A stretch of 64,000 nt of DNA from Metabacillus litoralis. GTDB taxonomy: Bacteria > Bacillota > Bacilli > Bacillales > Bacillaceae. Positions 6,927-29,229 of the stretch are shown here, piece by piece. Under the pieces are notes generated by a model. It searched no databases. It was not told the origin of the DNA and worked only from the letters and a program-made list of their open reading frames with translations. The stretch's first letter is position 1. Each line of letters opens with the position of its first letter. The stretch lies in the NCBI RefSeq assembly GCF_007994985.1, contig NZ_VOQF01000005.1:62001-126000 (forward strand), in the 5' to 3' direction. Both the position numbers and the translations under genes were made by a program.

Positions 6927-6950
6927 AAAATAAAAAAATAGAAGGTCTAG

Positions 6951-8111
6951 GTGTGGAGTATGAAAAAAATTTTATTAATTTTAGTTGTTTGCAGTTTATC
7001 ATTAAATCCAATATTTACAAATGAAATAAAAGCTACTTCAAATGGAAAGAAAATTTGTATTGATCCTGGTCATCAAAAGAAGTGGAACAATGGAAAAGAG
7101 CCTATTGCTCCAGGTTCAAAGATGACAAAAACCAAGGTTTCATCAGGTACACAGGGGGTATTTACAAGTATTCCTGAATACGTATTTACACTCGATATTG
7201 GTCTGAAGTTAGAGAAGGAATTGAAAAAACGAGGCTATAATGTATTTTTAACTAGATCAAATCATGATGTGAATTTAAGTAACATTGATAGAGCTAAATT
7301 TTGCAATTCAGTAAAGGCAGACTTGACAATAAGAATACATGCTGATGGCAGCACAAATAAGAAAACAAACGGAATACATATTTTGTATCCAGAAGGTTCT
7401 TACACAAAAGCAATTAATAAACAAAGTAAAGAAGCTGCAATTAAAATTCTTGAGGAACTAATAAAATCAACAGGTGCGAAAAAGGCTAGTACTGATGGGC
7501 TTTCACCAAGATCTGATATTACCGGCTTTAATTGGGCTAAGTATCCTGTTGTTCTTCCGGAATTAGGTTATATGTCTAATGTAAAAGAAGATAAGAAATT
7601 AGCTACGCCTGCTTATCGAGAAAAGCTTGTATTGGGAATATCTAACGGAGTAGATAAATATTTTGATCTGAATATTGCAGCAAACCAGAAATACTTTAAA
7701 GCAAATAAACATTTACCTATTTATGATAATCGAAGTGGGGAATTAATTGAAGTTGGTAAAGTGTATAAAGGTCAAACGTATCCTATTATTAGCAGTAGCA
7801 ATTACTGGTACAAAGTGAAATTTGCAAATTATAATGGGTATATTCGCAAATCAAATACAAGACTTGTTACAAATCATAATTTGCGTAACTTAAATGTAAA
7901 ATTAAAGCCAAGCTCTAATAAGTTTGTAACGATAAAAGGAACGGCTGTAAAGGATAACTCATCGGGGAAACTTGTATCTTTTGTTACACTTCAAAAAGGA
8001 ATAGAATATCCAATTATAAAAGAATATAGTAAATGGTATCAAATTGAAATACTTGGGAGAATTGGATATGTTGCTAAGTTAGATACACAAAAGCTTAGTG
8101 GAGGAAAATAA
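6951..8111 (+). CDS. Secreted N-acetylmuramoyl-L-alanine amidase with one A-B SH3-like dyad
   Basis: Cleaves the bond between MurNAc and the stem peptide in the wall. A signal peptide is followed by an Amidase_3 domain with the zinc set His41 (DPGH), Glu76 (IPEYVF) and His130 (RIHADG), and the catalytic Glu204 (LPELGYMSN). The last 140 residues carry two SH3-like modules: an A type starting KYFKANKHLPIYDN and a B type with SKWYQIEILGRIGYV. The start is GTG 6951 behind AAGG. ATG 6960 is possible, but its only purine-rich site is too close. LytC-type autolysins of B. subtilis sit in the same genomic arc and use CWB2 repeats instead. Sigma-D control is suggested by the upstream motif. Confidence 0.88.
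   Translation: MWSMKKILLILVVCSLSLNPIFTNEIKATSNGKKICIDPGHQKKWNNGKEPIAPGSKMTKTKVSSGTQGVFTSIPEYVFTLDIGLKLEKELKKRGYNVFLTRSNHDVNLSNIDRAKFCNSVKADLTIRIHADGSTNKKTNGIHILYPEGSYTKAINKQSKEAAIKILEELIKSTGAKKASTDGLSPRSDITGFNWAKYPVVLPELGYMSNVKEDKKLATPAYREKLVLGISNGVDKYFDLNIAANQKYFKANKHLPIYDNRSGELIEVGKVYKGQTYPIISSSNYWYKVKFANYNGYIRKSNTRLVTNHNLRNLNVKLKPSSNKFVTIKGTAVKDNSSGKLVSFVTLQKGIEYPIIKEYSKWYQIEILGRIGYVAKLDTQKLSGGK
7687..8090 (+). repeat. A-B dyad in the amidase (1 unit)
   Basis: Protein-level repeat. An A module (YDNRSGELIEVG, then a Trp-Tyr position) is joined by a linker of about 20 residues to a B module (DNSSGKL, YSKWYQI, GRIGYV). It belongs to the same family as the repeats in the four enzymes at 18745-29229. 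Confidence 0.8.
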
Positions 8112-8302
8112 GCACTACTAAAAACATTTTTTAGAAGGTTCAGTTAACTTTCATAAAAATATTTACTCACTTTGTTTCTTAAGATTTGAATTTATAAAGT
8201 ATGTTTGATAGTGAGAAATTCATCAATTAATGTATCAACTAATGAATTAAGGGGAAAATGTCGAATAAAGTTAAAAAATCACTAAAAGTATTTATTTTTT
8301 AA

Positions 8303-8330
8303 TTGAACACATTATAATAAGTGGTATAAT
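8303..8330 (+). promoter_or_regulatory. Candidate sigma-A promoter of the UDP-ManNAc dehydrogenase gene
   Basis: TTGAAC (8303-8308), a 16-base spacer and TATAAT (8325-8330), about 70 bases before the ATG. The rest of the 288-base gap is AT-rich with no other clear signal. Confidence 0.55.
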
Positions 8331-8399
8331 TAGAAATTGGTATTTAGTTAATTGAAAATGAAAAGTTTCCATACGTAAAAGGAAAGTGGGGATTTATAA

Positions 8400-9683
8400 A
8401 TGAAAATATGTACAGTAGGGCTAGGTTACATAGGTTTACCTACGTCCATTATGTTTGCAAAACACGATGTTGAGGTAGTAGGAGTTGACGTAAAACCAGA
8501 GGTTATTGATTCTTTAAATGCTGGTAAGATTCATATAGAAGAGCCTGGTCTACAGGAAGCGCTAGAAGAAGTTGTCGCAAAAGGCACTTTCAAGGCTGCG
8601 TTGCAACCAGAAAAAGCAGATGCGTTTATTGTTGCTGTTCCAACACCAAATAACGATGATGAACATAAATCATGTGATTTGAATTATGTTCTTAGTGCAG
8701 TCAAGAATATAATACCATTTCTTAAACAAGGAAATGTGTTAATAGTTGAATCAACAATTGGTCCAAGAAGCATGGACGATTTTGTGAAACCGCTCGTTGA
8801 AGAAGCAGGTTTTGAAGTTGGGAAAGACATTTTCCTTGTTCACTGTCCAGAACGTGTACTTCCTGGTCAAATTATGCATGAATTAATATTTAATAACCGT
8901 ATAGTCGGTGGTATTACATCAGCTTGTACTGAAGCAGGTGCTATGGTATATAGCACATTCGTTCAAGGAGAAATTATCCGTACAGATGCTAAAACAGCAG
9001 AAATGTCTAAACTAATGGAAAATACATTCCGTGATGTAAATATTGCATTGGCTAATGAACTAACAAAGGTATGTAATGAATTAGATATTAATGCCTTAGA
9101 TGTTATTCAAATGGCTAACAAGCATCCACGTGTTAATCTTCATACACCTGGACCTGGAGTTGGTGGACATTGCTTAGCGGTCGATCCTTATTTTATCGTA
9201 GCAAAAGCTCCTGAAACAGCTAAGCTTATTAGTTTATCAAGAGAAATTAATGTTTCTATGCCACACTATGTTGTGGAAAATGTAAACTCTCTATTGGAAA
9301 ATGTAAATGGTAAAGTGGTCACTATATTCGGCTTAACCTATAAAGGAAATGTAGACGATATCCGTGAAAGTCCTGCAATGGAGATACTTGATTTACTTAA
9401 AGCAGAGGGTAATTATGAAATCCGTGCATATGATCCGCACGTTGAAAAGGATTTTGTTACAGGTGATTTAGAAGAAGCAGTTCATAACTCTGATTTAGTG
9501 CTGATATTAACGGATCATAATGAATTTAGAGAGCTTGACTGGGAAAAACTCGGTGCTATGAGTACAAAACAAATTTTTGATACAAAGAATGTAGTCAAGA
9601 ATGCAAGTGCTGAATTTAAATACATTAACTTTGGAAATCTGTACAGTGCATTGAAAAAGGAACAGAATAAAATCTACCAGTAA
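8400..9683 (+). CDS. wecC: UDP-N-acetyl-D-mannosamine dehydrogenase (WecC type)
   Basis: Converts UDP-ManNAc to UDP-ManNAcA with NAD+. The Rossmann motif is GLGYIG, with VPTPNN in the middle domain. The catalytic Cys258 lies in GVGGHCLAVDP, where WecC-type enzymes have GGHC and UDP-glucose dehydrogenases have GGSC. The C-terminal domain has GLTYKGNVDDIRESP. Length 427 aa is normal. GGAAAGTGGGG precedes the ATG. Its substrate would come from the UDP-GlcNAc 2-epimerase at 29312, and the ABC exporter lies directly downstream, so the product probably enters an exported acidic polymer. WecC-like sequences can prefer UDP-GlcNAc in some species, so substrate assignment is by family only. Confidence 0.85.
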   Translation: MKICTVGLGYIGLPTSIMFAKHDVEVVGVDVKPEVIDSLNAGKIHIEEPGLQEALEEVVAKGTFKAALQPEKADAFIVAVPTPNNDDEHKSCDLNYVLSAVKNIIPFLKQGNVLIVESTIGPRSMDDFVKPLVEEAGFEVGKDIFLVHCPERVLPGQIMHELIFNNRIVGGITSACTEAGAMVYSTFVQGEIIRTDAKTAEMSKLMENTFRDVNIALANELTKVCNELDINALDVIQMANKHPRVNLHTPGPGVGGHCLAVDPYFIVAKAPETAKLISLSREINVSMPHYVVENVNSLLENVNGKVVTIFGLTYKGNVDDIRESPAMEILDLLKAEGNYEIRAYDPHVEKDFVTGDLEEAVHNSDLVLILTDHNEFRELDWEKLGAMSTKQIFDTKNVVKNASAEFKYINFGNLYSALKKEQNKIYQ

Positions 9684-9691
9684 TGGTAGGG

Positions 9692-9724
9692 ACATGGACA
9701 CCCAAAAATAGCGTGTCCATGTTT
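9692..9724 (+). terminator. Terminator after wecC
   Basis: Ten-base perfect stem ACATGGACAC/GTGTCCATGT with a short T-rich tail. Confidence 0.75.
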
Positions 9725-9750
9725 TGCTTATTTTCTTAAATAAATAAGGC

Positions 9751-9775
9751 AGCAGGAGTCTATCCTGCTTTTTTA
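9751..9775 (+). terminator. Second terminator after wecC
   Basis: Stem AGCAGGA/TCCTGCT, loop GTCTA, then TTTTTT. Two strong stops isolate wecC from the ABC exporter genes. Confidence 0.8.
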
Positions 9776-9935
9776 TATTATTGAGTTTTAATGGATACAA
9801 TGGATTATTAAGTGATTAGATGATATTGTTATAATAAATATTAGAGATATATTATTTATTTACGTTAAATTTAAAAAAGTATTGTTTTAAGCTTTGAAAG
9901 TGGAAAATTAAACATAGGCTAGGGGAACTTTTTTT

Positions 9936-10721
9936 ATGAATGTACTTAAAAAGTTTTTAACTGAAATGATTGAAAATAAAGATTTAATACGGTATTTAAC
10001 AGTATTTGATTTGAAATCAAAGGTCGCAAGGACATACTTGGGGATATTATGGTGGGTATTAGATCCTTTACTATATATGGCAATCTTTTATTTACTAGTT
10101 CACGTAATCTTAGGGCGGGGTGGTCCAGATTATCCAATAATTCTATTTACAGCTCTAATCCCATTAAAATGGACAACTGCTTGTCTGGTAGATGCTACTA
10201 CTGCTATATCTGGTAAAGGGAGAATTATTAAGCAAATTTATGTCCCTAAAGTAATATTTGTTATGATTAGGTTACTTGTTAATACTTTCAAATTCGGAAT
10301 AAGTGCTGTTGTATTAATATTATTTTTACTCTTATATGGGGTACCTTTCCAAATGACGATGTTATATTTCCCTATTATTGTAATTGTGCATGCTTTAGTA
10401 CTATTGCCTGTAATGGTCATGTTTGCTCATTTAGGAATTTATTTTAAAGATATTAAAAATTTTATGCAATATGTAGCTCGTATGCTTTTGTACCTTTCTC
10501 CTGTGTTGTTTACACTGGATTCAGTGCCTAAGAAATTTGTTTCAATTTTCTATTTAAACCCAATGACAACTTTTATTGAATCATACCGTAATGTGCTTAT
10601 TTATGGTACTGAGCCGATGTGGGGGGCTCTTGGGGTAATTATATTAGTTTCATTTGTCATTTTGTACTTTGCTTTACGTCTGTTATATAAATACGAAAAT
10701 GAATATGCTAAGGTGATGTAA
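9936..10721 (+). CDS. ABC-2 type polysaccharide export permease (TagG/Wzm-like)
   Basis: Membrane subunit of a two-part ABC exporter moving lipid-linked surface polysaccharide or teichoic acid across the membrane. It has 261 aa with about six hydrophobic helices. The N-terminal amphipathic part contains FDLKSKVARTYLG, then WWVLDPLLYM, typical of TagG, Wzm and RfbA. The ATPase gene overlaps its stop codon (TAATG), so the two are translationally coupled. Close relatives export wall teichoic acid (TagG) or O-antigen-like chains, and the sequence does not decide between them. The locus has glycosyltransferases but no visible tagB or tagF polymerase, which leans towards a sugar polymer. Confidence 0.85.
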   Translation: MNVLKKFLTEMIENKDLIRYLTVFDLKSKVARTYLGILWWVLDPLLYMAIFYLLVHVILGRGGPDYPIILFTALIPLKWTTACLVDATTAISGKGRIIKQIYVPKVIFVMIRLLVNTFKFGISAVVLILFLLLYGVPFQMTMLYFPIIVIVHALVLLPVMVMFAHLGIYFKDIKNFMQYVARMLLYLSPVLFTLDSVPKKFVSIFYLNPMTTFIESYRNVLIYGTEPMWGALGVIILVSFVILYFALRLLYKYENEYAKVM

Positions 10722-11458
10722 TGAGCGACTCAATTATTGAATTAAAAGATTTATGGGTTTCCTATCCACGCCAGCAAGAAGGACTTATTCGAAACCCATT
10801 TAAAAAGAGAGTGAAAAAACCAGATTTTTGGGCTTTAAGAGGTCTAAACTTTGAAGTGAAAAAAGGAGAGGTACTTGGGGTCATAGGTCGTAATGGATCT
10901 GGTAAAAGTACTCTTTTAAAAATACTTAGTGGTTTAATTATTCCTGATCAGGGAGAATTTATTCAAAATGGTAAACGACCAATTCTTTTATCATTAGGTG
11001 CTGGGTTTGAACAAGATTTAACTGGAATTGAAAATATTTACTTGAATGGGCTCCTTTTAGGACAAACAAAAGAACAGATTGATCAAAAGATGGATGAAAT
11101 AATTGATTTTTCAGAGTTGGGTGATTTTGTTCATGAACCAGTGCGAACATATTCTTCAGGAATGAGATCTAGACTTGCCTTTGCTATTGCTATTACAATT
11201 GACCCGGAAATATTGTTAATTGATGAGGTGCTAGGAGTAGGTGACCAAGCCTTTAGAGAAAAAAGTAAAACAGCTATCTTAGAGAAAATTAAGCAAAATA
11301 GAACGGTTATTATTGTTACTCACTCACCTAGTTTAGTTCGTGAACTTTGTGATCGTTGTGTATGGATTCATGTAGGTGAGCAAAAAGCTGTAGGTGAAGC
11401 GAACCAAGTGGTTACAGACTACGTGAAATTTATGAATGAGGCTGCCAGAAAGAAATGA
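10721..11458 (+). CDS. ABC transporter ATPase for polysaccharide export (TagH/Wzt-like, short form)
   Basis: ATP-hydrolysing partner of the permease just upstream (one-base overlap). Walker A GRNGSGKST is near residues 56-64, the signature YSSGMRSRLAFA near 143, Walker B ILLIDEVLGVGD near 164, and the switch His is in VTHS. At 245 aa it lacks the C-terminal extracytoplasmic part of B. subtilis TagH and the carbohydrate-binding domain of Wzt proteins that read chain-end caps. Cap-independent export is therefore likely. The next glycosyltransferase overlaps it by four bases (ATGA). Confidence 0.87.
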   Translation: MSDSIIELKDLWVSYPRQQEGLIRNPFKKRVKKPDFWALRGLNFEVKKGEVLGVIGRNGSGKSTLLKILSGLIIPDQGEFIQNGKRPILLSLGAGFEQDLTGIENIYLNGLLLGQTKEQIDQKMDEIIDFSELGDFVHEPVRTYSSGMRSRLAFAIAITIDPEILLIDEVLGVGDQAFREKSKTAILEKIKQNRTVIIVTHSPSLVRELCDRCVWIHVGEQKAVGEANQVVTDYVKFMNEAARKK

Positions 11459-12702
11459 ATGTTATTATGCTATTATTTAAGGACGTTATCTATGACGCTA
11501 GAGTACAAAGAGAAGCAATATCTCTTGCAGAAGCCGGTCATAAGGTAGAGATTATCTGCGTAAAGGAATATGAATTAACCTTACCTAAACTTCATGAAAA
11601 TCTTAAGGTTGTTAGGTTAACTATATCTACAAAAGCAGTAAAACAAAAGTTAGTAAATTCATCTTCACGTACAAATGCATCTCAGAAAAGAAATATAGTG
11701 AAGAGTCTATTGTTTAAGCTTGTACAGAGACCGATTTTGAAGCTCTTAAAGGATTTATGGGCATATGATCAGTTTTACAAAAAATGTACTCAATATATTA
11801 TTCAACACCAGAAAAAATTTGATGTCATTCACTGTCATGATTTAAACACTCTTTCAGCAGGTGTAAAATTAGCTCATAAATATCAACTATACGTCGTTTA
11901 CGATTCACATGAATTATTCAATGAAATGGCTGGGAGAAATAAAGTCGATAGAATCTACGGCTATTGGATAGAAAAAAAATTAATGAAAAGAATCAATCAT
12001 CTTATCGTTGTCAATCCTTACGTCGAAGTAGAATTTAAAAGAATGTATGGAAATACTATAAAGTCGACTGTTATTCAAAACACTCCTATTAATACTTTAG
12101 AAGATCATGAAACTCGTAATGTACAAAAGTTAAGAGAAGTTTATGGTATGAATAATGAGGATGTCTTACTTATCTACCAAGGTGGATTGACTCCATTTAG
12201 AGGAATTGAGCTGATTATCAAGACTTTAAAACACTTATCAGATAATTATAAACTTGTAATAATGGGCTCTGGTAGATCGTTATTAACCCTCAAGGAGTTA
12301 ACAGACGAACTTCACTTAGGAGAAAGGGTGTTTTTTCATCCACAGGTACAAGCTTCAGATGTATTGCATTATACAAAACAAGCTGATATCGGCCTTGTAA
12401 TGTATGAAAATATTAGTAAAAACAACTATTTCTCAACACCTAATAAAATTTTTGAATACCTTCTTGCAGGTATCCCAACGATAGCCTCAAAGCATCCTGG
12501 GAAAGAATATATTGTAGAGGTTGAGCAAACAGGAATTTGTACTGATGAAAATCCCTTATCAATAGCTGCAGCTGTAAGGGAGATTATGAGTAACTATGAA
12601 AAATATGTGGCTAATTGTCTTTCTAAGCAGGATAAATATAACTGGAATTATGAAAGACAAAAATTACAAAAACTATATCAAGTTATTGAAAGTGAACTAT
12701 AA
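11455..12702 (+). CDS. GT4 family glycosyltransferase
   Basis: GT-B fold enzyme of 415 aa. The N-terminal domain has VIHCHDLNTLSAG. The donor-binding C-terminal domain has YQGGLTPFRGIELI and the EX7E-type segment FSTPNKIFEYLLAG. It adds a sugar from a nucleotide donor to a lipid-linked or growing glycan at the inner membrane face. It overlaps the ABC ATPase stop by four bases and therefore belongs to the exporter operon, so its product is probably the exported chain. A terminator hairpin follows. Donor and acceptor are unknown. Confidence 0.82.
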   Translation: MNVIMLLFKDVIYDARVQREAISLAEAGHKVEIICVKEYELTLPKLHENLKVVRLTISTKAVKQKLVNSSSRTNASQKRNIVKSLLFKLVQRPILKLLKDLWAYDQFYKKCTQYIIQHQKKFDVIHCHDLNTLSAGVKLAHKYQLYVVYDSHELFNEMAGRNKVDRIYGYWIEKKLMKRINHLIVVNPYVEVEFKRMYGNTIKSTVIQNTPINTLEDHETRNVQKLREVYGMNNEDVLLIYQGGLTPFRGIELIIKTLKHLSDNYKLVIMGSGRSLLTLKELTDELHLGERVFFHPQVQASDVLHYTKQADIGLVMYENISKNNYFSTPNKIFEYLLAGIPTIASKHPGKEYIVEVEQTGICTDENPLSIAAAVREIMSNYEKYVANCLSKQDKYNWNYERQKLQKLYQVIESEL

Positions 12703-12720
12703 TTTAAAAGTTAGAGTAAA

Positions 12721-12746
12721 AGGGAAGCTATTGCTTTCCTTTTTTA
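12721..12746 (+). terminator. Terminator between two glycosyltransferase genes
   Basis: Stem AGGGAAGC/GCTTTCCT with one G-T pair, loop TATT, followed by TTTTTATT. It lies just before the ribosome site of the next gene, so the downstream gene may also depend on read-through. Confidence 0.65.
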
Positions 12747-12765
12747 TTAAATGGAGGGAAAGCTT

Positions 12766-15504: not shown

Positions 15505-15627
15505 TTGTAAGACTAGTTGTTTAAAAAGGTTTAGTTAAAGGAATGCTAAGTAAGATATATCTTAGTAACCTGTAACCTTTAAATTGTATATGTTTATTTT
15601 ATTCTTATGAAAGAGGTAGAAGATTAC

Positions 15628-17046
15628 ATGGTTTTTAGTAATTTAGTGTTCCTTTTTTTATTTCTGCCTATTGTTCTTACTGTTTATTTCATTTCGCCTC
15701 ATAGGCTTAGAAATTCAATTTTATTAATTGCAAGTCTTTTTTTCTATGCTTGGGGAGAACCTAAGTATGTAGCACTAATGCTTTTTTCGGTATTCATGAA
15801 CTATTTACTTGGTTTATTAGTGGAAGTAGCAACTTCAAAAAGGCGAAAGAAGCTTATTTTATCGTTAGCTGTGATTGGTAACCTTGTAATGCTAGGTTTT
15901 TTCAAATATATGAATTTTTTAGTGGCAAATTTAAACGCGCTTTTTAATTTATCAATTGAAATGGAGCCTATTCCATTACCTATAGGGATATCGTTTTTTA
16001 CCTTTCAAGCAATGAGCTATGTTATAGATGTGTATCGAAGAGATGCACCTGCACAAAGAAATTTGCTAGATCTATCTCTTTATATAGCACTGTTTCCCCA
16101 ACTGATTGCTGGACCAATCGTTAGATATAATACTGTTGCTGATCAAATAAAGAAGAGAATTACATCCTTCTCAAAATTCTCTGAGGGTGTTAGTCGTTTT
16201 ATTCTAGGATTAGCTAAAAAGGTTCTTATTGCTAATCCACTTGGTGGTGTGGCTGATGAAATATTCTCTATGCCTGCTGAGAGTTTATCAACAGGAACAG
16301 CTTGGATAGGTATAATAGCTTATACATTGCAAATTTACTTTGATTTTTCTGGATATAGTGATATGGCAATAGGGTTAGGCAAGATGTTTGGTTTCGATTT
16401 TGAGGAAAATTTCAACTATCCATATATATCGAGAAGTATTTCTGAATTTTGGAGAAGATGGCATATATCATTAGGAACATGGTTTAAAGATTATTTGTAT
16501 ATACCACTTGGGGGTAATCGTGTAAGCACATTTAAGATATACAGAAATCTCCTCATTGTGTGGACGATAACTGGCTTCTGGCATGGTGCAAGCTGGACGT
16601 TTATGGCATGGGGATTTTACTATGGTATTATCATATCTCTTGAGAAATTAGGGCTAGAAAAACTTATAAAATCTTTATGGAGACCTTTTCAACACCTTTA
16701 TGTCATATTGATTTTTATTATAGGATGGGTTTTCTTTAGAGCAGATAATTTTTCATATTCATTTGACTATTTGAGAATTATGTTTGGTGCTGGTGAAGTA
16801 TTAATCAGTCAAGAAACATTACTCTATATGGCTGATTATTGGATCGTTTTATTATTAGGTGTATTGTTTAGTATGCCTATATATCCCTTTATATCAAAAG
16901 CTATTCAAAAATTCACCATGAGAAATAAGGGACTTCAATTTGTAAAAGATATTCTTAGTACATTCATGTATCTTGTATTAATGATTGTAATTGCTATGTA
17001 TTTAGTAAATTCAACGTATAACCCATTTATTTATTTCAGGTTCTAA
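15628..17046 (+). CDS. MBOAT family O-acyltransferase (AlgI/DltB-like)
   Basis: Multi-pass membrane enzyme that passes an acyl, usually acetyl, group across the membrane to a sugar polymer. The N-terminus MVFSNLVFLFLFLP, the core SEFWRRWHISLGTWFKDYLY and the invariant His in FWHGASWTFMAWG are characteristic of AlgI-type MBOAT proteins. Length is 472 aa with about ten hydrophobic segments. ATG 15628 is preferred over 15607 because AGAGGTAG lies eight bases before it and the family starts with this Met-Val-Phe-Ser. It is paired with the DHHW protein gene 14 bases downstream, as AlgI is with AlgJ/AlgX. Confidence 0.9.
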   Translation: MVFSNLVFLFLFLPIVLTVYFISPHRLRNSILLIASLFFYAWGEPKYVALMLFSVFMNYLLGLLVEVATSKRRKKLILSLAVIGNLVMLGFFKYMNFLVANLNALFNLSIEMEPIPLPIGISFFTFQAMSYVIDVYRRDAPAQRNLLDLSLYIALFPQLIAGPIVRYNTVADQIKKRITSFSKFSEGVSRFILGLAKKVLIANPLGGVADEIFSMPAESLSTGTAWIGIIAYTLQIYFDFSGYSDMAIGLGKMFGFDFEENFNYPYISRSISEFWRRWHISLGTWFKDYLYIPLGGNRVSTFKIYRNLLIVWTITGFWHGASWTFMAWGFYYGIIISLEKLGLEKLIKSLWRPFQHLYVILIFIIGWVFFRADNFSYSFDYLRIMFGAGEVLISQETLLYMADYWIVLLLGVLFSMPIYPFISKAIQKFTMRNKGLQFVKDILSTFMYLVLMIVIAMYLVNSTYNPFIYFRF

Positions 17047-17060
17047 AGGGGTTTTCATTT

Positions 17061-18401: not shown

Positions 18402-18419
18402 GTTATGAATTTTTACTTT

Positions 18420-21549: not shown

Positions 21550-21560
21550 GCCGATTCGGA

Positions 21561-21587
21561 GTCTAGTTAAAAACTAGGCTTTTTTTT
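21561..21587 (+). terminator. Terminator after the M14 peptidase gene
   Basis: Stem GTCTAGTT/AACTAGGC with one G-T pair, followed by eight T. Confidence 0.85.
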
Positions 21588-21728
21588 GATATATTAAGTC
21601 TCTTTAGTGTAATTATTTAATTTGAGAGAAAAAATTCCAAATATAATAGGGAAATTTGTCTTGTTTTGTTTATAATCGTGACATAGTATAATAGATAGGT
21701 ATTTAATGAAATTAAAGAGGAGGATAAT

Positions 21729-24700
21729 GTGATACAGAAATTTTTTACTAGAAGTATAGTATGGATGTTAGTAACTTTATTAATGATATCTAGTTTCCCT
21801 CAAAATATGTTAGCTGGAGAAGAAAAACAACCGCATCTGATTAAAGTTATTACCGATACAGAAATCAAGTCGAATGATGGCGTCAATATAGGTAAAGTAT
21901 ATAAAGACACATTACTATTTGTATCAAATATCCCTGGTGATAAGGAGAATCTATCCTTTCACTTTGGAGAGAAGGAAGCAACAATTCAAGTTGAATCTAC
22001 GGTTCAGGTAGAAACTAGTGACGAAATTTTAAAGCGTTACGAACTAGGCTTAAGCTATTCAGAATCTGTAGGGATGCTACTTTCTCATCAAAAAACGATT
22101 CCTTTTATGGATAATACAAATATTAATCGAGGATTAATTCAGCCTGGTGCTGAGATATTTGTACAAAAATTAGATGATTCCTATATCTATATTTTATTGG
22201 GTGGAATAGATTATATCGTTGACAGAACAGAATATGAAAGTTACTTTGTGCAACTAGAGTCTAATCTAAAGGATGAGAATTCAAGTGTAGTAGACTTAAA
22301 GGAAGAAAATAGTCATACTGATGAAACTCAAGTAGTAGAAGTTACGGAAGATTCCGATGCTATTGAAGATGATAAATTAGAAAACAGTGATACACTTGAA
22401 GAAAGTGAAGAAGATATTCAAGAAAAGGAAATAAAGGAAACTTTGGTAGAAGATACGGAAGTTGAAAATCAAAGCAGTCAACTACAATTAATGACTGCAC
22501 CCGAAAATGAAATATTTACAAAGAATACAAAGTATTTTAGGGTAACTGATGAACAAGTTCCTATTTATGATAATAGATCTTCCTCACTAAAGCTTGTTGG
22601 GTTTTTATCTAAAGGACAGGTTTTTCCAAGAACAAGAGATTATACTAGTTGGCACCAAATATCATATGGTGATTATTATGCGTATGTCCCGAAAAATGGG
22701 ACAGTGCCAAGTGAGAAATTGATTCAAAATGTTTATAGTACGTCATTACTAGTCACTAATACAAGAATGATTACCACATTAACTGATACACCAGTTTATG
22801 ATAATTCAACTGGTAAGTTAATTCAATATGCAACACTAGTAAAAGGTTTACAGCATACAATTATAAAAGAATACACAAGTTGGTACAGTGTCTTAGTTTC
22901 AGGACGTGTGGGGTATATTAGAAAATCACAAGCTGTGTCATCCTTTTTAAGTACGGATAGCTTCTTTAAAGTTGTTGAGGAAAAGGGTAAAACACCGGTT
23001 TATTCTGATCTTGCTGATAACTCAAAAATAATTGGTTACTTATACAATGGTCAAGAATACCCTCGCTTAGAGCAGCATTCTGGATGGCATGGAATTAAAT
23101 TCGGGAATGTTATTGGCTATGTTCATTCATCAGTAACTACCCCTGCAAATGGAAAGAGTATTAAGAATCTGAGTGATGATTCTGCTACAAATATTTCAAT
23201 TACGCCTCGTTGGGATTCAGTTGTGTATGACAACACAAAGCCAGGTCCATTAGTTCCATTTGCTGTTGTTAGAGATAATAAATCCTATAAAATTTTAAAA
23301 GAATATACTAGTTGGTATGCCATTGAAGTAGCAGGACGACTTGGTTATATTAGAAAAAAGAATGCCATAAGAGAATTTACAGATTCTGATAAATTTTTTA
23401 AAGTTGAAAAAGACAGTATACCAGTTTATGATAATCGTTCTGGAACACTAGTTATGGTAGGAAGTTTAGTTAAAGATCAAGTATACGAGCGAACAGCTAA
23501 TTATACTAGCTGGCATCAGATCCAATTTGGTGATTTCAAAGCATATGTACAAAAAGAAGGGACAACCCCTAGCTCAGATTCGGGGATAAAAAATTTAAAT
23601 ACGAAGTATCAAAATACTAAAAAGACTTTTACAGCTTTAAAAGACTTAGAAGTAAAGGATAATTCAACAAGTCCTTTAACGACTTTTGGCTTTATTAAAG
23701 AAGGGCAAAGCTATCCTGTTATAAGTGAAGGAGACAAATGGTGGGGGATTTTATTTGCAGGCCGTGTAGGCTATGTAAAAAGAGACTATGCACTAGGCGG
23801 TATTTATAAGGAAGTGTCTTATACTGATTATAATTATTCTCTAGAAACTATGATTAATAAACAGATGATGGTTAGTCCACAAACAGATAAATATAAGGTT
23901 CAATATGCATATGTTGCTGGCTATTTAATATCAGCTGTCGAAGAAAAGGATACGTATCCTAAATTAGCAACTGTTAAAGGAACATCAGGTGTTAATTTAA
24001 GATCAGCTCCGAATGCTAATTCAACGACATGGGTTTATAATAATGTACCATTTGGCAAAACGTTAACAATCGTTGATTATGCCGGAAACGGATGGTATAA
24101 AGTAGAATATCCGAGACATATTTTTGGTGGTTTTAGTAACGCGTACGAGTCAGATGTAAGGGAATACGTAGATCCGAATAATTTTGATATAAACACAAAG
24201 TCTATGTATCAATTTGTCTTACTTTCTAAGTTTGCTGGGGCCAATCCAACGGAGTTAAACAATCTATTGGATGGTAAAGGAATATTAGAAGGAATGGGAG
24301 ATGCTTTTTCTAAAGGAAGTAAACTAGCGGGGATAAATGAAATTTATCTTGTATCCCATGCATTGTTAGAAACAGGAAATGGTAAATCTACACTTGCAAC
24401 TGGCGTTAATTATAATGCACCAGATGGGAAAACATATAAAGTTTATAACATGTTTGGTATTAATGCAACAGATGGAAACGCAACTGCAAATGCTTCAAAA
24501 TTTGCTTATGAAGAAGAATGGTTTACTCCAGAAGCAGCCATTATTGGTGGAGCAAAATTCGTAGCAAATAGGTATGTTTACAACGGTTATGGTCAAGATA
24601 CAATTTATGAAATGCGTTGGAATCCTGCTAAACCTGCTACACATCAATATGCAACTGATGTAGGTTGGGCTGAAAAACAAACATCAAATTTTATGAATAT

Positions 24701-24755
24701 GTATAATAAATTAACAAGTTATCAACTATATTTAGATATTCCTAAATATCAATAA
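21729..24755 (+). CDS. Secreted endo-beta-N-acetylglucosaminidase with three A-B SH3-like dyads
   Basis: Hydrolyses GlcNAc-MurNAc glycan strands. A signal peptide is followed by an N-terminal segment (residues 35-170) and a very acidic linker (about 175-245, Glu/Asp rich). Three A-B dyads span residues about 265-690. A canonical SH3_3 module follows (GTSGVNLRSAPN). The C-terminal GH73-like glucosaminidase has INEIYLVSHALLETGNGKS, where the Glu is the expected acid catalyst, as in LytD. GTG 21729 is preceded by AAAGAGGAGG five bases away. At 1008 aa it is a major autolysin candidate. The acidic linker may space the enzyme from the membrane or bind cations, which is inference. Confidence 0.9.
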   Translation: MIQKFFTRSIVWMLVTLLMISSFPQNMLAGEEKQPHLIKVITDTEIKSNDGVNIGKVYKDTLLFVSNIPGDKENLSFHFGEKEATIQVESTVQVETSDEILKRYELGLSYSESVGMLLSHQKTIPFMDNTNINRGLIQPGAEIFVQKLDDSYIYILLGGIDYIVDRTEYESYFVQLESNLKDENSSVVDLKEENSHTDETQVVEVTEDSDAIEDDKLENSDTLEESEEDIQEKEIKETLVEDTEVENQSSQLQLMTAPENEIFTKNTKYFRVTDEQVPIYDNRSSSLKLVGFLSKGQVFPRTRDYTSWHQISYGDYYAYVPKNGTVPSEKLIQNVYSTSLLVTNTRMITTLTDTPVYDNSTGKLIQYATLVKGLQHTIIKEYTSWYSVLVSGRVGYIRKSQAVSSFLSTDSFFKVVEEKGKTPVYSDLADNSKIIGYLYNGQEYPRLEQHSGWHGIKFGNVIGYVHSSVTTPANGKSIKNLSDDSATNISITPRWDSVVYDNTKPGPLVPFAVVRDNKSYKILKEYTSWYAIEVAGRLGYIRKKNAIREFTDSDKFFKVEKDSIPVYDNRSGTLVMVGSLVKDQVYERTANYTSWHQIQFGDFKAYVQKEGTTPSSDSGIKNLNTKYQNTKKTFTALKDLEVKDNSTSPLTTFGFIKEGQSYPVISEGDKWWGILFAGRVGYVKRDYALGGIYKEVSYTDYNYSLETMINKQMMVSPQTDKYKVQYAYVAGYLISAVEEKDTYPKLATVKGTSGVNLRSAPNANSTTWVYNNVPFGKTLTIVDYAGNGWYKVEYPRHIFGGFSNAYESDVREYVDPNNFDINTKSMYQFVLLSKFAGANPTELNNLLDGKGILEGMGDAFSKGSKLAGINEIYLVSHALLETGNGKSTLATGVNYNAPDGKTYKVYNMFGINATDGNATANASKFAYEEEWFTPEAAIIGGAKFVANRYVYNGYGQDTIYEMRWNPAKPATHQYATDVGWAEKQTSNFMNMYNKLTSYQLYLDIPKYQ
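22520..23805 (+). repeat. Three A-B dyads in the glucosaminidase
   Basis: A-B-A-B-A-B order. The third A module (PVYDNRSGTLVMVG, YTSWHQIQFGD) is almost identical in its core to A modules of the subtilase gene, suggesting recent exchange or duplication between these genes. Confidence 0.82.
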
Positions 24756-24757
24756 GT

Positions 24758-24800
24758 AAAATAAACAGGAGCAACCATTTGGTTGCTCCTGTTTATTTTC
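24758..24800. terminator. Bidirectional terminator between convergent genes
   Basis: A perfect 19-base stem (24758-24776 pairing with 24781-24799), loop ATTT, A-run on the 5' side and T-run on the 3' side, so it works both ways. It overlaps the stop codon of the minus-strand subtilase gene. Confidence 0.9.
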
Positions 24801-27177
24801 TAACAAAACCAGTTCGACCAGCAATGTTAATTTCATACCAACTGGTATATCTTTTAACAATCGGATAAGTGACTCCTTTTTCTATTGTAAGGAATGGAAT
24901 GAGTTTTCCTGTTGAATTATCATATACGGTCTTCTCATTTGTTGTTTGGAAATATCCAGTCTTGTTTAACTGACTAGCTGTTTTTCCATGGAGAGTATTA
25001 ATTGGAATTGTTCCATGTTTTGAAACGTATCCATTAAAGTCACCAAATGATATTTGATGCCAGCTAGTGTAATCCTTTTCTCTTTTATATGTCTGACCCT
25101 TCTCTAAATATCCTACAATTACTAATGAGCCAGAGCGATTGTCATATACAGGTTGTGTTTCATTTGTCACCTTAAAATATTGATCTGATATGAGAAACTG
25201 AAGCGTCACCTTGTCCTTTTTAACATAACCAATTCGATCTGCAATAATAATAGATACCCAGCCTGAGTATTCCTTTACTATTGGAAGTTTTTCTCCTGCA
25301 AACAGAGTAGCAAAAGGAACAAGTTGACCTGATGTATTATCATAAACCTCTATATCCTCATTAGCAATAAAGGTTCTATCAATGCTGTAATTATTCCCTG
25401 ATAAATTTTTTAATGAATGTGAGAAAGCAACTGTTGTATAATCTTTTTGAATGTATACTGATTTATTTCCATATTGTATTTCATGCCATTGGTCAATTTC
25501 TTTTATTCTTCTGTATACTTCTCCTTTATTTAAAACGCCAACCTTAGTATTAGAATCAAACCGATTAGAAAGTATAGGAACATGATCAGAACTTACTGTA
25601 AAGAACTGGTCTGAAGAATTAAATTTGATTGTAATATCATTCTTTTGAACATAGCCAATTCTTCCCCCAAAATTAACGCCTATCCAGTTAGTATAATTTG
25701 TTGATATTGCGTATGTTGTACCGGATTTAATTATTCCAAAAGGTACAAGAGAACCAGAAGTATTGTCCAAAACAATAGAATCATTTAAAGCTAAAAATTC
25801 ACGGTTTGTTGTGTTTGATGTATTAGTTAAATTATTAAGATTATGACTAGATAACGGTAAAGTGTTGGTCTTCCTTACAAATGCAGAATAAGAGCCAAAA
25901 CGAATTTGATACCAACTAGTATAATGCCTTTCAATTTGATAAATCTGACCTTTTTCTAAATAGCCAACATTGACGAGAGAACCAGAACGATTATCGTATA
26001 CAGGTAGTTTATCTTCTAAAGCTTTAAAATACGGTGCATCTACTAGAATTGGTTCAGGATCTTTTTCTTCTGAAATAAAACTTTGAATAAGTCCATATCC
26101 ATATACTGTATCACGACCTGTAACTCCAAGATCTTCAACATTTTTTAATAGTAACGATCTGATTTCTTCATTTGTTTTAGTAGGATGCTTTTCTTTTAGT
26201 AAGGCTAAATAACCTGTGACATATGGAGTAGCCATAGAAGTTCCGTCCATATATTTGTATTGGTTATTTAAATACGTACTTCTCACTCTAACACCAGGCG
26301 CAGTTACTTCAAGTTGAGAACCTGTATTGGAAAAATTAGCAAGCTGCTTCTTGATATTAACAGCACCTACTGCTATAACATTTCTATTATTAGCAGGGAA
26401 ATTTATCGAATTCACACCTTCATTTCCTGCAGCACCTACTAGTAAGATATTATTCTTATACGCTTTATTTAAAAGCTCTGAGATAATAGGGTCACTGCCA
26501 CTAAAGCCAAAACTCATGTTAAGAATGTCCATTTTCTGTTCTATGGCCCAATCAATGGCATTTGCTAGTTCTGTGGTTGATCCTTCACCATTAGCATCTA
26601 AAATTTTTAGTGCATATATACTAGAACTATAAGCAACACCTAATGTACCAATATCATTATTTAAAGAAGCAATAATACCCGCAACATGCGTACCATGACC
26701 ATTTTCATCTTTATAATCTTCTGTATTGTCAATGAAATTTTTTCCACCTGAAACGTTAAGATCTGGATGGAATCTATCAATACCCGTATCGAGTATCGCT
26801 ATTTTAATGTTCTTACCAGTTAATGAAGCCCTTTGCATTTGCGGTACACCTATAGCATCATGTCCCCAGTCAATTGACTGTGTTGAAGAGATAGTTATTC
26901 CTGGTTTATCGATATTAACTAGTTTAATATCTTGGTTTTTTCGAAGTGCCTCTATTTCATTTAATGTCAATAATGCAGAATAAGCTGGCAGGGTGTCAAA
27001 ATAATAGGTTATTCTATCTGTAGGGATGAGTGTATGGTCAACTTTATCATTAAATAATACGGTAACCTTTTCATATTGTTCTTCAACTAATTCTTGTGCG
27101 TGCGTATTTGAGTACCCTAATGATAAAAGAATAAATATGATAATTGTTTGTAGAGAGTACTTTAAATGTGAGTGCAT
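24793..27177 (-). CDS. Secreted subtilisin-like serine protease with three C-terminal A-B SH3-like dyads
   Basis: S8 peptidase of 794 aa. A signal peptide ends near THAQ, and a short I9-like propeptide lies at residues 35-95. The catalytic triad is Asp130 (ILDTGID), His161 (HGTHVAG) and Ser314 (GTSMATP), with oxyanion Asn252. Residues about 380-794 are three A-B dyads running to the very last residue, so the dyads should anchor the protease in the wall. It may process wall proteins, including the neighbouring autolysins, but the substrate is unknown. It is the only dyad gene on the minus strand, divergent from the L,D-transpeptidase gene, with a good GGAGG site before its ATG. Confidence 0.9.
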   Translation of the reverse strand: MHSHLKYSLQTIIIFILLSLGYSNTHAQELVEEQYEKVTVLFNDKVDHTLIPTDRITYYFDTLPAYSALLTLNEIEALRKNQDIKLVNIDKPGITISSTQSIDWGHDAIGVPQMQRASLTGKNIKIAILDTGIDRFHPDLNVSGGKNFIDNTEDYKDENGHGTHVAGIIASLNNDIGTLGVAYSSSIYALKILDANGEGSTTELANAIDWAIEQKMDILNMSFGFSGSDPIISELLNKAYKNNILLVGAAGNEGVNSINFPANNRNVIAVGAVNIKKQLANFSNTGSQLEVTAPGVRVRSTYLNNQYKYMDGTSMATPYVTGYLALLKEKHPTKTNEEIRSLLLKNVEDLGVTGRDTVYGYGLIQSFISEEKDPEPILVDAPYFKALEDKLPVYDNRSGSLVNVGYLEKGQIYQIERHYTSWYQIRFGSYSAFVRKTNTLPLSSHNLNNLTNTSNTTNREFLALNDSIVLDNTSGSLVPFGIIKSGTTYAISTNYTNWIGVNFGGRIGYVQKNDITIKFNSSDQFFTVSSDHVPILSNRFDSNTKVGVLNKGEVYRRIKEIDQWHEIQYGNKSVYIQKDYTTVAFSHSLKNLSGNNYSIDRTFIANEDIEVYDNTSGQLVPFATLFAGEKLPIVKEYSGWVSIIIADRIGYVKKDKVTLQFLISDQYFKVTNETQPVYDNRSGSLVIVGYLEKGQTYKREKDYTSWHQISFGDFNGYVSKHGTIPINTLHGKTASQLNKTGYFQTTNEKTVYDNSTGKLIPFLTIEKGVTYPIVKRYTSWYEINIAGRTGFVRK
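24796..26040 (-). repeat. Three A-B dyads in the subtilase
   Basis: Order in the protein is A-B-A-B-A-B. Characteristic cores are PVYDNRSGSLV, YTSWHQI, VYDNTSGQLVPFATL and GRIGYV. The inter-module linkers contain Leu-Asn-Asn-Leu or Leu-Lys-Asn-Leu, also seen in the amidase and glucosaminidase. Confidence 0.82.
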
Positions 27178-27270
27178 ATTTGTATCCTCCTGCTAGATTA
27201 GAATGATATTTTAGTGCTTTTCTATTATAATAAGGTGACAGATCAAGTAAGTAGAAAACTGGAGGTACTA

Positions 27271-29229
27271 ATGAAACGTTTATTTTATATTATTGCTTTA
27301 ATCATTTCTTTCTTCTTTTCTTATCATTATAATGCTTTTGCGGCAGATAATCTTGTGACATTTACTGTAACTTCAGATACAGCAGACATATATGAAAAGA
27401 AAAACGGATCTTTAATAGTGATTGGAACATTAGCAAAAGACCAAACGTTTGCTAGTGAAGATGAATATTCAAGTTGGCATCAGTTCAGGATTGCAGGAAA
27501 AGAAATGTATATAAATAAAGGAGATACGACAACACAAACCAAACAAAAAAAATCAACACATATAAATCATACTGCAAGAGAGTTTACCCTTAACACTAAT
27601 GTTACAGTTTACGATAATTCAGGAAGTACTTTAAAGCCAATGGGTGTATTGAATGCAGGTTCAAGTTATAAATCTTTAAAGGAATATTCAAGCTGGATTA
27701 GCATTCAACTATCAGATCGGATTGGTTATATTAGAAAATCAGAGGTATCTACAGGATTTACGGCAAAAGACTCTTACTTCAAGGTTCTTGAAGATCTTAA
27801 TGTATATAAAAAAACTTCAAAAGGTCTTACTAAGGTAGGGATTCTTGAGGAAGGTCAAGTATATCCTCGTTTAAAAGGATTTACAGATTGGCATCAAATA
27901 CAATTTAACCAAGGCGAAGCATATGTTAACAAAGATAATACTATCCCAGTTAGTTCTTCTACTTTACGCAATGAAGTAAATCAATATGGAGACTCGACTT
28001 TCTTCGTGTCTACCACAAAACAAACTGTTATATATGACAATACATCTGGTCGGTTAACTCCTTTTGCGGAATTTTTAGATAATGTGACACTTTCAGTAGT
28101 AAAGGAATATAGTGGCTGGTATGAAGTGGATTTTGCAAACCGTAAGGGATTTATTAAAAAAGAAAATACAAAATTACTTTTCAGTAACGAGATAGGTTAT
28201 TTCAAGGCAAACGTTAATACTGGCATATATGTAAAAGGAAAATCAGGGCTTAAACATATAGGTACGATTCAAAAAGGGCAAGTATATCCAATTGAAAAAC
28301 ACTACAGTAGTTGGCTTGCTATTTCATTAAATGGAAAAATAGCATATATTCAAAAGTCTAAAACATCGCCAGTCCAAAATGGTTCATTAAAGAACGAAGT
28401 AAAACAAAAAGAAGTCTCTATTGGTACAATTAAAATGAATAAATCCACAATAGTTTATGATAATACGACAGGTAGTCTAGTTCCATTCGCTACTTTAAAT
28501 AACTCAACAATAGTAAATGTGACTCAAGCTTACACCGGTTGGTTTAAAGTAGAAATAGCAGGAAGATACGGATACATTAATAGAGAGAATGCAATATTTG
28601 AAAGTCACTTTGACAAGTATTTGATTAGTAAGAATATCGATTCTAAACAAATTCTTGTTGTGGAGTCAAAAAATAGTTCTTCTATTTATGCAACATTGAG
28701 TATGTATGAAAAAGAAGGAGATTCTTGGCGGAGAACCTTGAAGACAAGTGCTGTATTAGGAAAGAATGGTTCTAGTGGAAATAAACGTGAGGGCGATGGA
28801 AAAACACCTATTGGTTTATATCCTTTAAGAGATGCATTTGGCATAAAAACTAAGCCTTCTAAAGTTAACTACCCTTATACTAAAACTACTAAAAATGATT
28901 ATTGGGTCGATGATCCTACTTCATCTGATTATAATAAAGGAATAACATATAAAGGTGATCCTTCAACAAAGTGGAACTCTTTTGAAAGAATGTCAAACTC
29001 ACTTTATCAATATGGAGTTATTATTGGTTATAATGATGATCCAGTTATTAAAGGTAAAGGTAGTGCTATTTTCCTTCATGTCTGGAGAAACTCTGCTAGC
29101 CCAACACTTGGATGTGTTGCTATAGCAGAAACCAAGCTAGTTAATGTCCTTCAAAATTTAAAGGTGGAAAAAAATCCACATATCTTAATTGGGACAAAAG
29201 CCTCAAACCCCACTGTATATACTGAGTAA
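27271..29229 (+). CDS. Secreted L,D-transpeptidase (YkuD) with three N-terminal A-B SH3-like dyads
   Basis: Forms or remodels peptide cross-links in peptidoglycan through a catalytic Cys. The start is ATG 27271, after GGAGGT; an earlier in-frame ATG at 27214 has no ribosome site. A signal peptide (KRLFYIIALI) is followed by three A-B dyads (residues about 30-448). The YkuD domain occupies the last 190 residues: GDGKTPIGLYPL, His603 (FLHVW) and Cys615 (TLGCVAI). The usual YkuD motif has Ser-His-Gly-Cys; here it is Pro-Thr-Leu-Gly-Cys, so the second His is not conserved. L,D-transpeptidases of this wider (ErfK/YbiS) group are found in spore and vegetative walls. Confidence 0.88.
   Translation: MKRLFYIIALIISFFFSYHYNAFAADNLVTFTVTSDTADIYEKKNGSLIVIGTLAKDQTFASEDEYSSWHQFRIAGKEMYINKGDTTTQTKQKKSTHINHTAREFTLNTNVTVYDNSGSTLKPMGVLNAGSSYKSLKEYSSWISIQLSDRIGYIRKSEVSTGFTAKDSYFKVLEDLNVYKKTSKGLTKVGILEEGQVYPRLKGFTDWHQIQFNQGEAYVNKDNTIPVSSSTLRNEVNQYGDSTFFVSTTKQTVIYDNTSGRLTPFAEFLDNVTLSVVKEYSGWYEVDFANRKGFIKKENTKLLFSNEIGYFKANVNTGIYVKGKSGLKHIGTIQKGQVYPIEKHYSSWLAISLNGKIAYIQKSKTSPVQNGSLKNEVKQKEVSIGTIKMNKSTIVYDNTTGSLVPFATLNNSTIVNVTQAYTGWFKVEIAGRYGYINRENAIFESHFDKYLISKNIDSKQILVVESKNSSSIYATLSMYEKEGDSWRRTLKTSAVLGKNGSSGNKREGDGKTPIGLYPLRDAFGIKTKPSKVNYPYTKTTKNDYWVDDPTSSDYNKGITYKGDPSTKWNSFERMSNSLYQYGVIIGYNDDPVIKGKGSAIFLHVWRNSASPTLGCVAIAETKLVNVLQNLKVEKNPHILIGTKASNPTVYTE
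27359..28614 (+). repeat. Three A-B dyads in the L,D-transpeptidase
   Basis: A modules with YSSWHQF, FTDWHQI and YSSWLAI; B modules with YSSWISI, YSGWYEV and YTGWFKV. More divergent than in the protease and glucosaminidase, but with the same order and spacing. Confidence 0.8.

Follow-up and report, generated by a model that had tools for sequence, protein, structure and literature searches.

A paired, two-class SH3b module on five enzymes of a Metabacillus polymer locus as a probable wall anchor

In Clostridioides difficile, arrays of the CWB2 domain sit on functionally diverse proteins, which are encoded beside the PSII locus that makes the bound anionic polymer (PMC5842191). The repeats R1ab, R2ab, and R3ab of staphylococcal Atl are described as paired a-b half-open barrels that are connected by flexible linkers, occur on an amidase and a glucosaminidase, and bind lipoteichoic acid (LTA) (PMC7679415). 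In Listeria, the SH3-like repeats of the GW proteins LygA, IspC, and Auto bind glycosylated wall teichoic acid (WTA) in a manner dependent on repeat number, and their genes adjoin WTA glycosylation genes (PMC10335673). Here, these systems are compared with five genes in a 64,000-nucleotide stretch of Metabacillus litoralis (contig NZ_VOQF01000005.1, positions 62,001 to 126,000; hereafter the window), which encode an amidase, an M14 peptidase, a glucosaminidase, a subtilase, and an L,D-transpeptidase. All five carry a pair of SH3-like modules, A and B (the A-B dyad), and this paired anchor probably holds the five enzymes on the polymer of the neighboring genes. The cluster is embedded in polymer genes, three of which are referred to below by name: a UDP-sugar dehydrogenase (presumably WecC-like), a UDP-GlcNAc 2-epimerase-like gene (taken to be MnaA), and a Glycos_transf_4 initiator (taken to be TagO).

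The dyads share with CWB2 and PSII an anchor array that is common to many chemistries and genes that adjoin a polymer locus; they differ in that CWB2 has a toprim-like fold and three non-interchangeable domains, whereas the dyads are SH3b domains arranged as one to six A-B pairs. The Atl repeats, which are of the GW type, resemble the dyads, as these are predicted, in their paired a-b units and flexible joints, but Atl unites two chemistries in one protein, and the dyads give no match to PF13457. Likewise, the Listeria modules belong to the GW family, have about 80 residues each, and serve a ribitol-phosphate polymer, whereas the dyad host has no TagA, TagB, or TagF homologue. Domains of the Lactobacillus proteins SlpA and SlpX that are described as LTA- or teichoic-acid-binding are among the structural matches of the B-A model introduced below (7qeh, 8alu; also 8aol), and PF03217 is touched weakly by 4/92 dyads; however, whole-model similarity is low (TMq 0.34-0.35), and these are S-layer proteins, not enzymes. 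The best reading of these comparisons is that the dyad would be the SH3b counterpart of the CWB2/PSII or Atl-repeat anchor, on a uronate glycan made next door.

Modules A and B as a paired unit

The window belongs to the 4.88 Mb genome of a Metabacillus, in which the five enzyme open reading frames (ORFs) were confirmed with the catalytic families that an original prediction, made from the letters of the window, had named; a profile scan places one catalytic domain in each (Amidase_3, M14, Glucosaminidase, Peptidase_S8, and YkuD). That prediction had counted 26 modules in strict alternation, and profile search agrees: two SH3-like modules lie in the amidase and six in each of the other enzymes, in the order A-B throughout, which gives 13 dyads. 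The observation proved stronger than it had been stated. Position-blind spectral clustering coincides with odd or even place for 25/26 window modules, for 436/436 modules of relatives (contiguous arrays of at least four modules with an even count, odd arrays being dropped), and, once modules were deduplicated at 70% and only 39 core columns kept, for 298/299 modules of relatives, which counters chance or drift as the source of the classes. A tree of the window modules requires one change of A/B label, at weak support (57/29), and average linkage recovers 24/26 of them while being uninformative on the 436 modules of relatives (434 vs. 2). Class A is marked by Trp-His and Phe-Gly, and class B by Gly-Arg (Arg at 89%). 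In the window scan, which used an earlier A/B profile pair cross-contaminated by iteration, mean module identity is 0.39 for A-A, 0.37 for B-B, 0.27 for A-B, and 0.25 for A-B inside one dyad; the A-to-B linker measures 17-22 residues in 13/13 dyads, and the B-to-A linker, absent from the original prediction, exactly 9 residues in 8/8 joints. The predicted A-to-B linker of about 20 residues stands, but the Leu-Lys-Asn-Leu motif assigned to it is exact in one linker only (subtilase dyad 2), with hydrophobic-x-Asn, by eye, in 11/13.

Scored with profiles built from the 13 A and 13 B window modules only, adjacent modules of the window and its relatives make 139 AB, 96 BA, 5 AA, and 1 BB steps. In 36 further loci sampled across the order, the counts are 116 AB, 77 BA, 4 BB, and 0 AA, and the linker medians of 21 (A-B) and 10 (B-A) keep the two lengths distinct. 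Eight proteins contain an A-A or B-B step; in four of them, the module out of order scores similarly with both profiles (38/31, 40/33, 32/31, and 61/65); a Cyclobacteriaceae sequence (L054, 30%) showed no module with the 13 A and 13 B profiles and is not counted. Because the step counts, the clusters, and the linker lengths are kept in relatives, the alternation is a conserved property rather than a local accident.

AlphaFold2 predicts the A-B pair with a predicted TM score (pTM) of 0.87 and a mean pLDDT of 93.1 (alignment of 92 sequences), and the B-A pair with a pTM of 0.62 and a mean pLDDT of 93.7 (a shallower alignment of 63 sequences). At like pLDDT, the difference in pTM would place the longer linker inside a rigid unit and make the 9-residue joint the hinge, so that A-B looks rigid and B-A hinged in models whose alignment depths differ. 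The fixed A-B orientation in the model and the conserved alternation support the earlier proposal that the dyad is a composite unit. Each module is predicted to be all-beta, with a small beta-barrel fold (pLDDT about 93). In Foldseek comparisons with the Protein Data Bank (PDB), single modules align to the bacterial SH3b domains 2kt8, 2kyb, 2krs, and 9ovi; the whole dyad arrangement was not found among the best 50 of 420 matches (top TMq 0.43, 3npf_A; no direct comparison with the Atl repeats was made), and the best solved relatives by sequence are mostly single SH3b domains.

Over curated cut-offs, SH3_3 (PF08239) is matched in the amidase and SH3_4 (PF06347) in the M14 peptidase, the subtilase, and the L,D-transpeptidase; the best SH3_3 stretch of the glucosaminidase is an extra C-terminal domain, not a dyad module, and single dyads can fall just short of the SH3b cut-off. 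Among 92 dyads scanned at E <= 0.01, SH3_4 is found in 43/92 and SH3_3 in 27/92, while the NCBIfam model EntFM_CwpFM matches 72/92 far below its own cut-off. GW/SH3_8 (PF13457) had no match in the five proteins (E up to 1) or in the 92 dyads (E up to 0.01), and CWB2 (PF04122) had none in the five proteins and 0 in the whole window genome at E <= 1e-15. Judged by these profile matches, the dyad is a member of the SH3b superfamily in a two-class paired form. Its modules are recognized by Pfam SH3_3 and SH3_4 and by the NCBIfam EntFM_CwpFM and EntA-D wall-binding regions, but none of the Pfam and NCBIfam models met in the scans describes a two-class alternating dyad, and no description of a two-class paired SH3b form was found in the open-access literature searched.

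Occurrence, exchange, and replacement of the dyad

Thirteen of the 14 dyad-profile matches in the window genome (E <= 0.001) lie inside this cluster. The 14th (E 2.4e-9) is an amidase on another contig with five seemingly ordinary SH3 domains (by eye). The idea that ordinary SH3_3 domains elsewhere in the genome supply additional dyads was considered and set aside, with only one weak extra match (L014), and single unpaired dyad modules elsewhere in the genome, which had been named beforehand as counter-evidence, were not seen in the dyad-profile search. At the family level, 9/80 genomes match at E <= 1e-15, all of them Metabacillus (9/21 of the genus). Across the order, a search that scored the ten best candidates per genome found dyads in 51/397 sampled genomes and 37/136 sampled genera, including Compostibacillus, Paucisalibacillus, Terrihalobacillus, Salinibacillus, Salirhabdus, Gracilibacillus, Pseudogracilibacillus, Virgibacillus, Bacillus salacetis, and B. 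pakistanensis; if the dyad is an anchor, a widespread family would thus join the short list of wall-targeting modules.

The predicted sharing by unrelated chemistries extends to about ten in total. Relatives add heparinase II/III, a PGA_cap protein, glycoside hydrolase family 18 (GH18) with LysM, and a beta-lactamase-like protein, and polysaccharide deacetylases carry a single dyad in 5/5 such ORFs scanned (L137, L139, L141, L146, and L151). That four enzymes have three dyads and the amidase one is correct for the window; as a rule, "exactly three" fails, since proteins of relatives have 1 to 6. A phage origin was also rejected, as no relative was found in IMG/VR (two peptide patterns) or in 50,697 phage records (tblastn with one dyad). 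A plasmid search gave three distant Priestia matches. On the Priestia megaterium plasmid pBP01R2c (L174, 4001-4396), a distant dyad (31%) lies in a protein annotated as cell wall-binding repeat-containing, and its gene is near acyltransferase and glycosyltransferase genes.

Sequence comparison indicates that the dyad array is a real cassette that has moved between chemistries, yet is stable inside Metabacillus. In Salirhabdus and Virgibacillus, the arrays of adjacent heparinase and glucosaminidase genes are 97.5% identical in DNA over 1696 aligned bases and 96.4% over 1789 aligned bases, respectively, and L,D-transpeptidases with an N-terminal catalytic domain and C-terminal dyads exist (L066, L068, and L125). 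Near-identical arrays and N- and C-terminal placements uphold the mobile cassette of the original prediction, but recent local spread is not borne out: for 12/13 window dyads, the top match lies in the corresponding enzyme of M. niabensis or of a related metagenome-assembled genome (MAG), the amidase dyad having no such match, and each glucosaminidase dyad is matched by the M. niabensis dyad of equal rank at 77% (dyad 1), 75% (dyad 2), and 76% (dyad 3) identity. In a tree built from 143 pairs cut by linker length (two of them B-A pairs with long linkers), the enzyme label requires 43 changes (79-86 in ten shuffles) and the genome label 81 (108-116), so for the most part an array stays with its enzyme, though exceptions occur.

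Within Metabacillus, dyads, CWB2, and SbsC_C (the S-layer SbsC type) appear nearly exclusive of one another. TagO orthologues (E below 1e-100) occur in 16/21 genomes, and dyads in 9/16 of these vs. 0/5 of the others. The five TagO-negative genomes (G054, G055, G056, G057, and G067; L069-L073) have 16-34 SbsC_C matches each, with a single match outside them (G070). CWB2 (E <= 1e-15) is present in 6/21 genomes, five without dyads and G068, the sole genome with both, which is a MAG listed at 7% contamination. CWB2 matches lie on the same contig as a TagO-like gene, about 1-20 kb apart, in G066, G069, and G068, and on a different contig in G053, G060, and G070. In the five TagO-negative genomes, the catalytic-domain identity of the nearest M14 homologues is 51-52%; those scanned, from two of these genomes, have SbsC_C and no dyads, and in the remaining three SbsC_C falls inside the M14 ORFs by coordinates. 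This replacement of dyads by other wall-anchor families points to the wall and away from a role in protein-protein contacts that would gather the five enzymes in one complex. One module common to five enzymes would suit a scaffold, and many SH3 domains bind peptides, but several genomes have a single dyad match among the ten candidates scored and hence no dyad-bearing partner seen there (partners or scaffolds were not searched for systematically), and we consider such a complex very improbable.

Neighboring polymer genes and the ligand

Anchor genes adjoin wall-polymer genes in the window and in many, though not all, loci of relatives. TagO, LytR-CpsA-Psr (LCP), or MnaA homologues occur in the fetched DNA of 9/10 named loci outside Metabacillus, Terrihalobacillus being the exception. 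At least one polymer marker lies within about 10 kb of 19/36 order-level dyad loci vs. 1/19 control regions (Fisher p 0.0004), the controls being about 150 kb away on the 19 contigs long enough and the marker thresholds the analysts' choice. These 36 loci come from 36 of the 50 other carrier genomes (printed coordinates, less G199, which is L051) and overlap the named set in at least two genomes (Salirhabdus and Salinibacillus). Markers accompany 17/24 loci with a protein of at least four modules but only 2/12 with fewer, which makes the single-dyad deacetylases an exception to the polymer link.

The polymer is probably not a classical glycerol-phosphate teichoic acid, because no TagB/TagF (PF04464) or TagA/WecG (PF03808) homologue was found in the window genome, with a B. 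subtilis control positive in both. Heparinase II/III domains are uronic-acid lyases, and they are fused to dyads in four ORFs of relatives that were scanned, in G065 (by coordinates), and in G219; together with the UDP-sugar dehydrogenases, these dyad-bearing lyases suggest uronic acid in the polymer. No paper pairing heparinase with teichuronic acid, or SH3b with heparinase II, was found in the open-access literature searched. O-acetylation by MBOAT and AlgX was discarded as the defining partner, because searches of several dyad loci did not find these genes.

All five arrays are basic, with isoelectric points (pI) of 9.91 (amidase), 9.27 (M14), 9.29 (glucosaminidase), 9.20 (subtilase), and 9.35 (L,D-transpeptidase); the amidase and L,D-transpeptidase are basic throughout, and the remaining parts of the M14 peptidase, glucosaminidase, and subtilase are acidic (5.49, 4.55, and 4.89). 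The median pI of the 143 pairs is 9.28. Basic arrays on partly acidic proteins are what would be expected if the arrays were non-specific tails for any anionic wall polymer. Such tails would not require both classes, their alternation, and the residues that mark each class (Trp-His and Phe-Gly for A, Gly-Arg for B) to be conserved across genera, and some dyads are not basic, which makes this explanation improbable.

Ancestry is also divided along the locus. Proteins of the 8.4-29.2 kb block (WecC-like dehydrogenase to L,D-transpeptidase) are closest to M. niabensis or a neighboring MAG, at 61-95% identity to M. niabensis and 24-68%, or absent, in G053, whereas the flank (the 33.6 kb glycosyltransferase, TagO, LCP, YvyE, DegS, and DegU) is closest to G053 or G058 (87-100%; M. 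niabensis 77-93%). The break is not placed more finely, since MnaA is about 94% identical in all three and the 32.4 kb glycosyltransferase 81-83%. A DegS tree joins the window genome (dyad) and G053 (CWB2) as sisters and puts G058 (dyad) next to them. With G068 labeled as dyad despite also having CWB2, anchor type requires eight changes over the 21 genomes (shuffled mean about 10.5; 2/200 shuffles as low), a modest degree of clustering that the dyad label by itself does not show (146/500 shuffles). From the ancestry of block and flank and the anchor changes on the DegS tree, the polymer genes and anchored enzymes, amidase apart, may be read as having been replaced as one block, and anchor type seems to have been swapped together with polymer genes between related bacteria.

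We lean toward the view that the dyad is a wall-anchor unit on an anionic uronate-containing glycan of the adjacent locus and is inherited with it as a block. The dyad, of about 133 residues, would be a rigid, mostly basic unit of two SH3b domains, and dyads would be strung as flexible beads, rigid within A-B and hinged at B-A, on enzymes whose N-termini are all signal-like by eye, suggesting secretion. Through avidity and without covalent bonds, one to several dyads would keep an enzyme attached to an anionic secondary glycan of the wall, for which the uronate-containing product of the adjacent locus, with its TagO, LCP, ABC-exporter, and UDP-sugar-dehydrogenase genes, is the most likely candidate. 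The anchor may thereby co-localize hydrolases (the amidase, glucosaminidase, and M14 peptidase), a cross-linker (the L,D-transpeptidase), and a protease (the subtilase, a putative wall enzyme), and in relatives would also carry heparinase-type lyases and polysaccharide deacetylases. Most of the enzymes that bear the anchor would be passed on and exchanged in one block with the polymer genes.

Alternatively, the modules could bind peptidoglycan itself, at the stem peptide or cross-bridge, the proximity of polymer genes being commonplace for autolysin genes of Bacillales. SH3b arrays of the C. perfringens autolysin are proposed to bind peptidoglycan peptides (PMC8470621), another account lists SH3-3, -5, -6, and -7 with a peptidoglycan ligand (PMC5817068), and single-dyad polysaccharide deacetylases away from polymer markers would fit as well. 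Peptidoglycan binding would not, however, predict the near-exclusion with CWB2 and SbsC_C, the co-inheritance with a polymer block of different ancestry, or the fusion to heparinase II/III, and it seems to us rather unlikely.

Several observations nonetheless weigh against the uronate-glycan anchor favored here. The original prediction of one ligand, the neighboring polymer, agrees with gene neighborhood, near-exclusion of anchors, and block co-inheritance, but not with single-dyad proteins away from polymer loci. Overall, 17/36 order-level loci have no polymer marker (7/24 multi-dyad loci and 10/12 with under four modules), and at least five of the 10 marker-less small-array loci are single-dyad polysaccharide deacetylases, which weigh against one ligand; with TagO, LCP, and MnaA alone the contrast is weak (11/36 vs. 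1/19, p 0.04). Dyad loci also vary in their polymer genes, which excludes a single exact glycan as the ligand; MBOAT and AlgX, for instance, were not found in the fetched loci of G063, G065, G058, and G052. Some dyads are neutral to acidic, with pI down to 4.5 and medians of 6.4-6.9 in three species. PF04464 is matched strongly in the dyad carrier G068 and weakly in G052, G062, and G063, and PF03808 also in G068. As for uronic acid, the window genome is without a heparinase, the dyad-less G071 has two strong ones, and the heparinase beside the B. pakistanensis dyad enzyme carries no dyads. The correlations with TagO and between anchors draw on 21 related genomes (Fisher p about 0.045, kinship uncorrected), G059 and G071 have TagO but none of dyad, CWB2, or SbsC_C, and the fetched M. 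niabensis block lacks the amidase. Finally, SH3b domains elsewhere are thought to bind peptidoglycan peptides (PMC8470621).

A bolder proposal, to which we give slightly less than even chances, is that the two SH3b classes of the dyad form a hitherto undescribed anchor code for uronate glycans of the wall, with the anchor family (dyad, CWB2, or SbsC_C) switching in a serotype-like manner with the polymer locus and re-fitting the same enzymes, such as the M14 peptidase. Should the favored uronate-glycan anchor hold, one could test whether a change of wall polymer in a lineage brings a change of anchor on its surface enzymes, and the dyad, as a defined and rigid binder of two domains for such a glycan, would be useful as a probe and a cell-surface display tag.

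Coordinates and further features of the window

Table 1. Features of the dyad cluster and surrounding polymer genes, in window coordinates except for the last two rows.
Feature	Position	Strand	Remarks
UDP-sugar dehydrogenase	184-1542	+	Family scan
Asp2-like	1700-3001	+	Family scan; accessory Sec profile match, inside polymer locus
Methyltransferase	3014-4054	+	Family scan
Glycosyltransferase	4058-6745	+	Family scan
N-acetylmuramoyl-L-alanine amidase	6951-8111	+	Amidase_3 ~7053-7655; one C-terminal A-B dyad
Amidase dyad 1	7692-8087	+	A 7692-7859, B 7923-8087; profile search
UDP-sugar dehydrogenase (presumably WecC-like)	8400-9683	+	Family scan
ABC exporter (ABC-2)	9936-11458	+	Family scan
Glycosyltransferases	11455-15504	+	Family scan
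MBOAT	15607-17046	+	Family scan
AlgX/DHHW-like	17061-18269	+	Family scan
M14 zinc carboxypeptidase-family protein	18745-21549	+	N-terminal region of ~200 residues, three dyads, C-terminal catalytic match ~20668-21309
M14 dyad 1	19351-19749	+	Profile search
M14 dyad 2	19777-20175	+	Profile search
M14 dyad 3	20203-20598	+	Profile search
Glucosaminidase	21729-24755	+	Three dyads between N-terminal region and C-terminal catalytic match ~24303-24704
Glucosaminidase dyad 1	22533-22934	+	Profile search
Glucosaminidase dyad 2	22962-23366	+	Profile search
Glucosaminidase dyad 3	23394-23792	+	Profile search
Glucosaminidase extra SH3_3	23985-24110		One ordinary domain, outside dyads
Subtilase	24793-27177	-	Peptidase_S8 match ~26092-26817; three C-terminal dyads
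Subtilase dyad 1	25633-26031	-	Used for A-B structure model
Subtilase dyad 2	25207-25605	-	Profile search
Subtilase dyad 3	24796-25179	-	Runs up to stop codon
L,D-transpeptidase	27214-29229	+	Three N-terminal dyads; YkuD match ~28732-29166
L,D-transpeptidase dyad 1	27358-27747	+	Profile search
L,D-transpeptidase dyad 2	27775-28170	+	Profile search
L,D-transpeptidase dyad 3	28198-28593	+	Profile search
UDP-GlcNAc 2-epimerase-like gene (taken to be MnaA)	29312-30457	+	Homologues tracked by phmmer and tblastn
Glycosyltransferase	32351-33613	-	Family scan
Glycosyltransferase	33634-34797	+	Family scan
Glycos_transf_4 initiator (taken to be TagO)	34944-36020	+	TagO/WecA-type
LCP ligase	36065-37102	-	Family scan
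Mosaic comparison	8400-29229 (block), 33634-39886 (flank)		Break between L,D-transpeptidase and 33.6 kb glycosyltransferase
Near-identical arrays, L049	1069-2764 and 5784-7478		Adjacent heparinase and glucosaminidase genes
Near-identical arrays, L053	4349-6129 and 8801-10581		Adjacent heparinase and glucosaminidase genes

The L,D-transpeptidase ORF opens with a GTG at 27214, and its likely start, by eye, is the in-frame ATG at 27271 before the signal-like segment. The N-terminal regions of the M14 peptidase (18745-19350) and the glucosaminidase (21729-22532) may be degenerate modules; weak module scores occur in the N-terminal regions of some relatives (L059, L062, and L063). A terminator-like hairpin of 19 pairs (24758-24799) lies between the convergent glucosaminidase and subtilase genes.

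A sigma-D-like -10 element (GTCGATAT) precedes both the amidase gene (6901-6951) and the flagellin gene (49683-49769), which suggests that amidase expression may be linked to motility. A common sigma-D promoter for the five genes was rejected, as the amidase gene has the only candidate among the matches just upstream of a start. Adjoining the flagellin gene is a glycosyltransferase-TPR-methyltransferase fusion (50755-53757), perhaps for flagellin glycosylation, and downstream of fliD the window encodes a protein of 1539 residues in which an fn3 domain is accompanied by several weaker matches (57717-62336).

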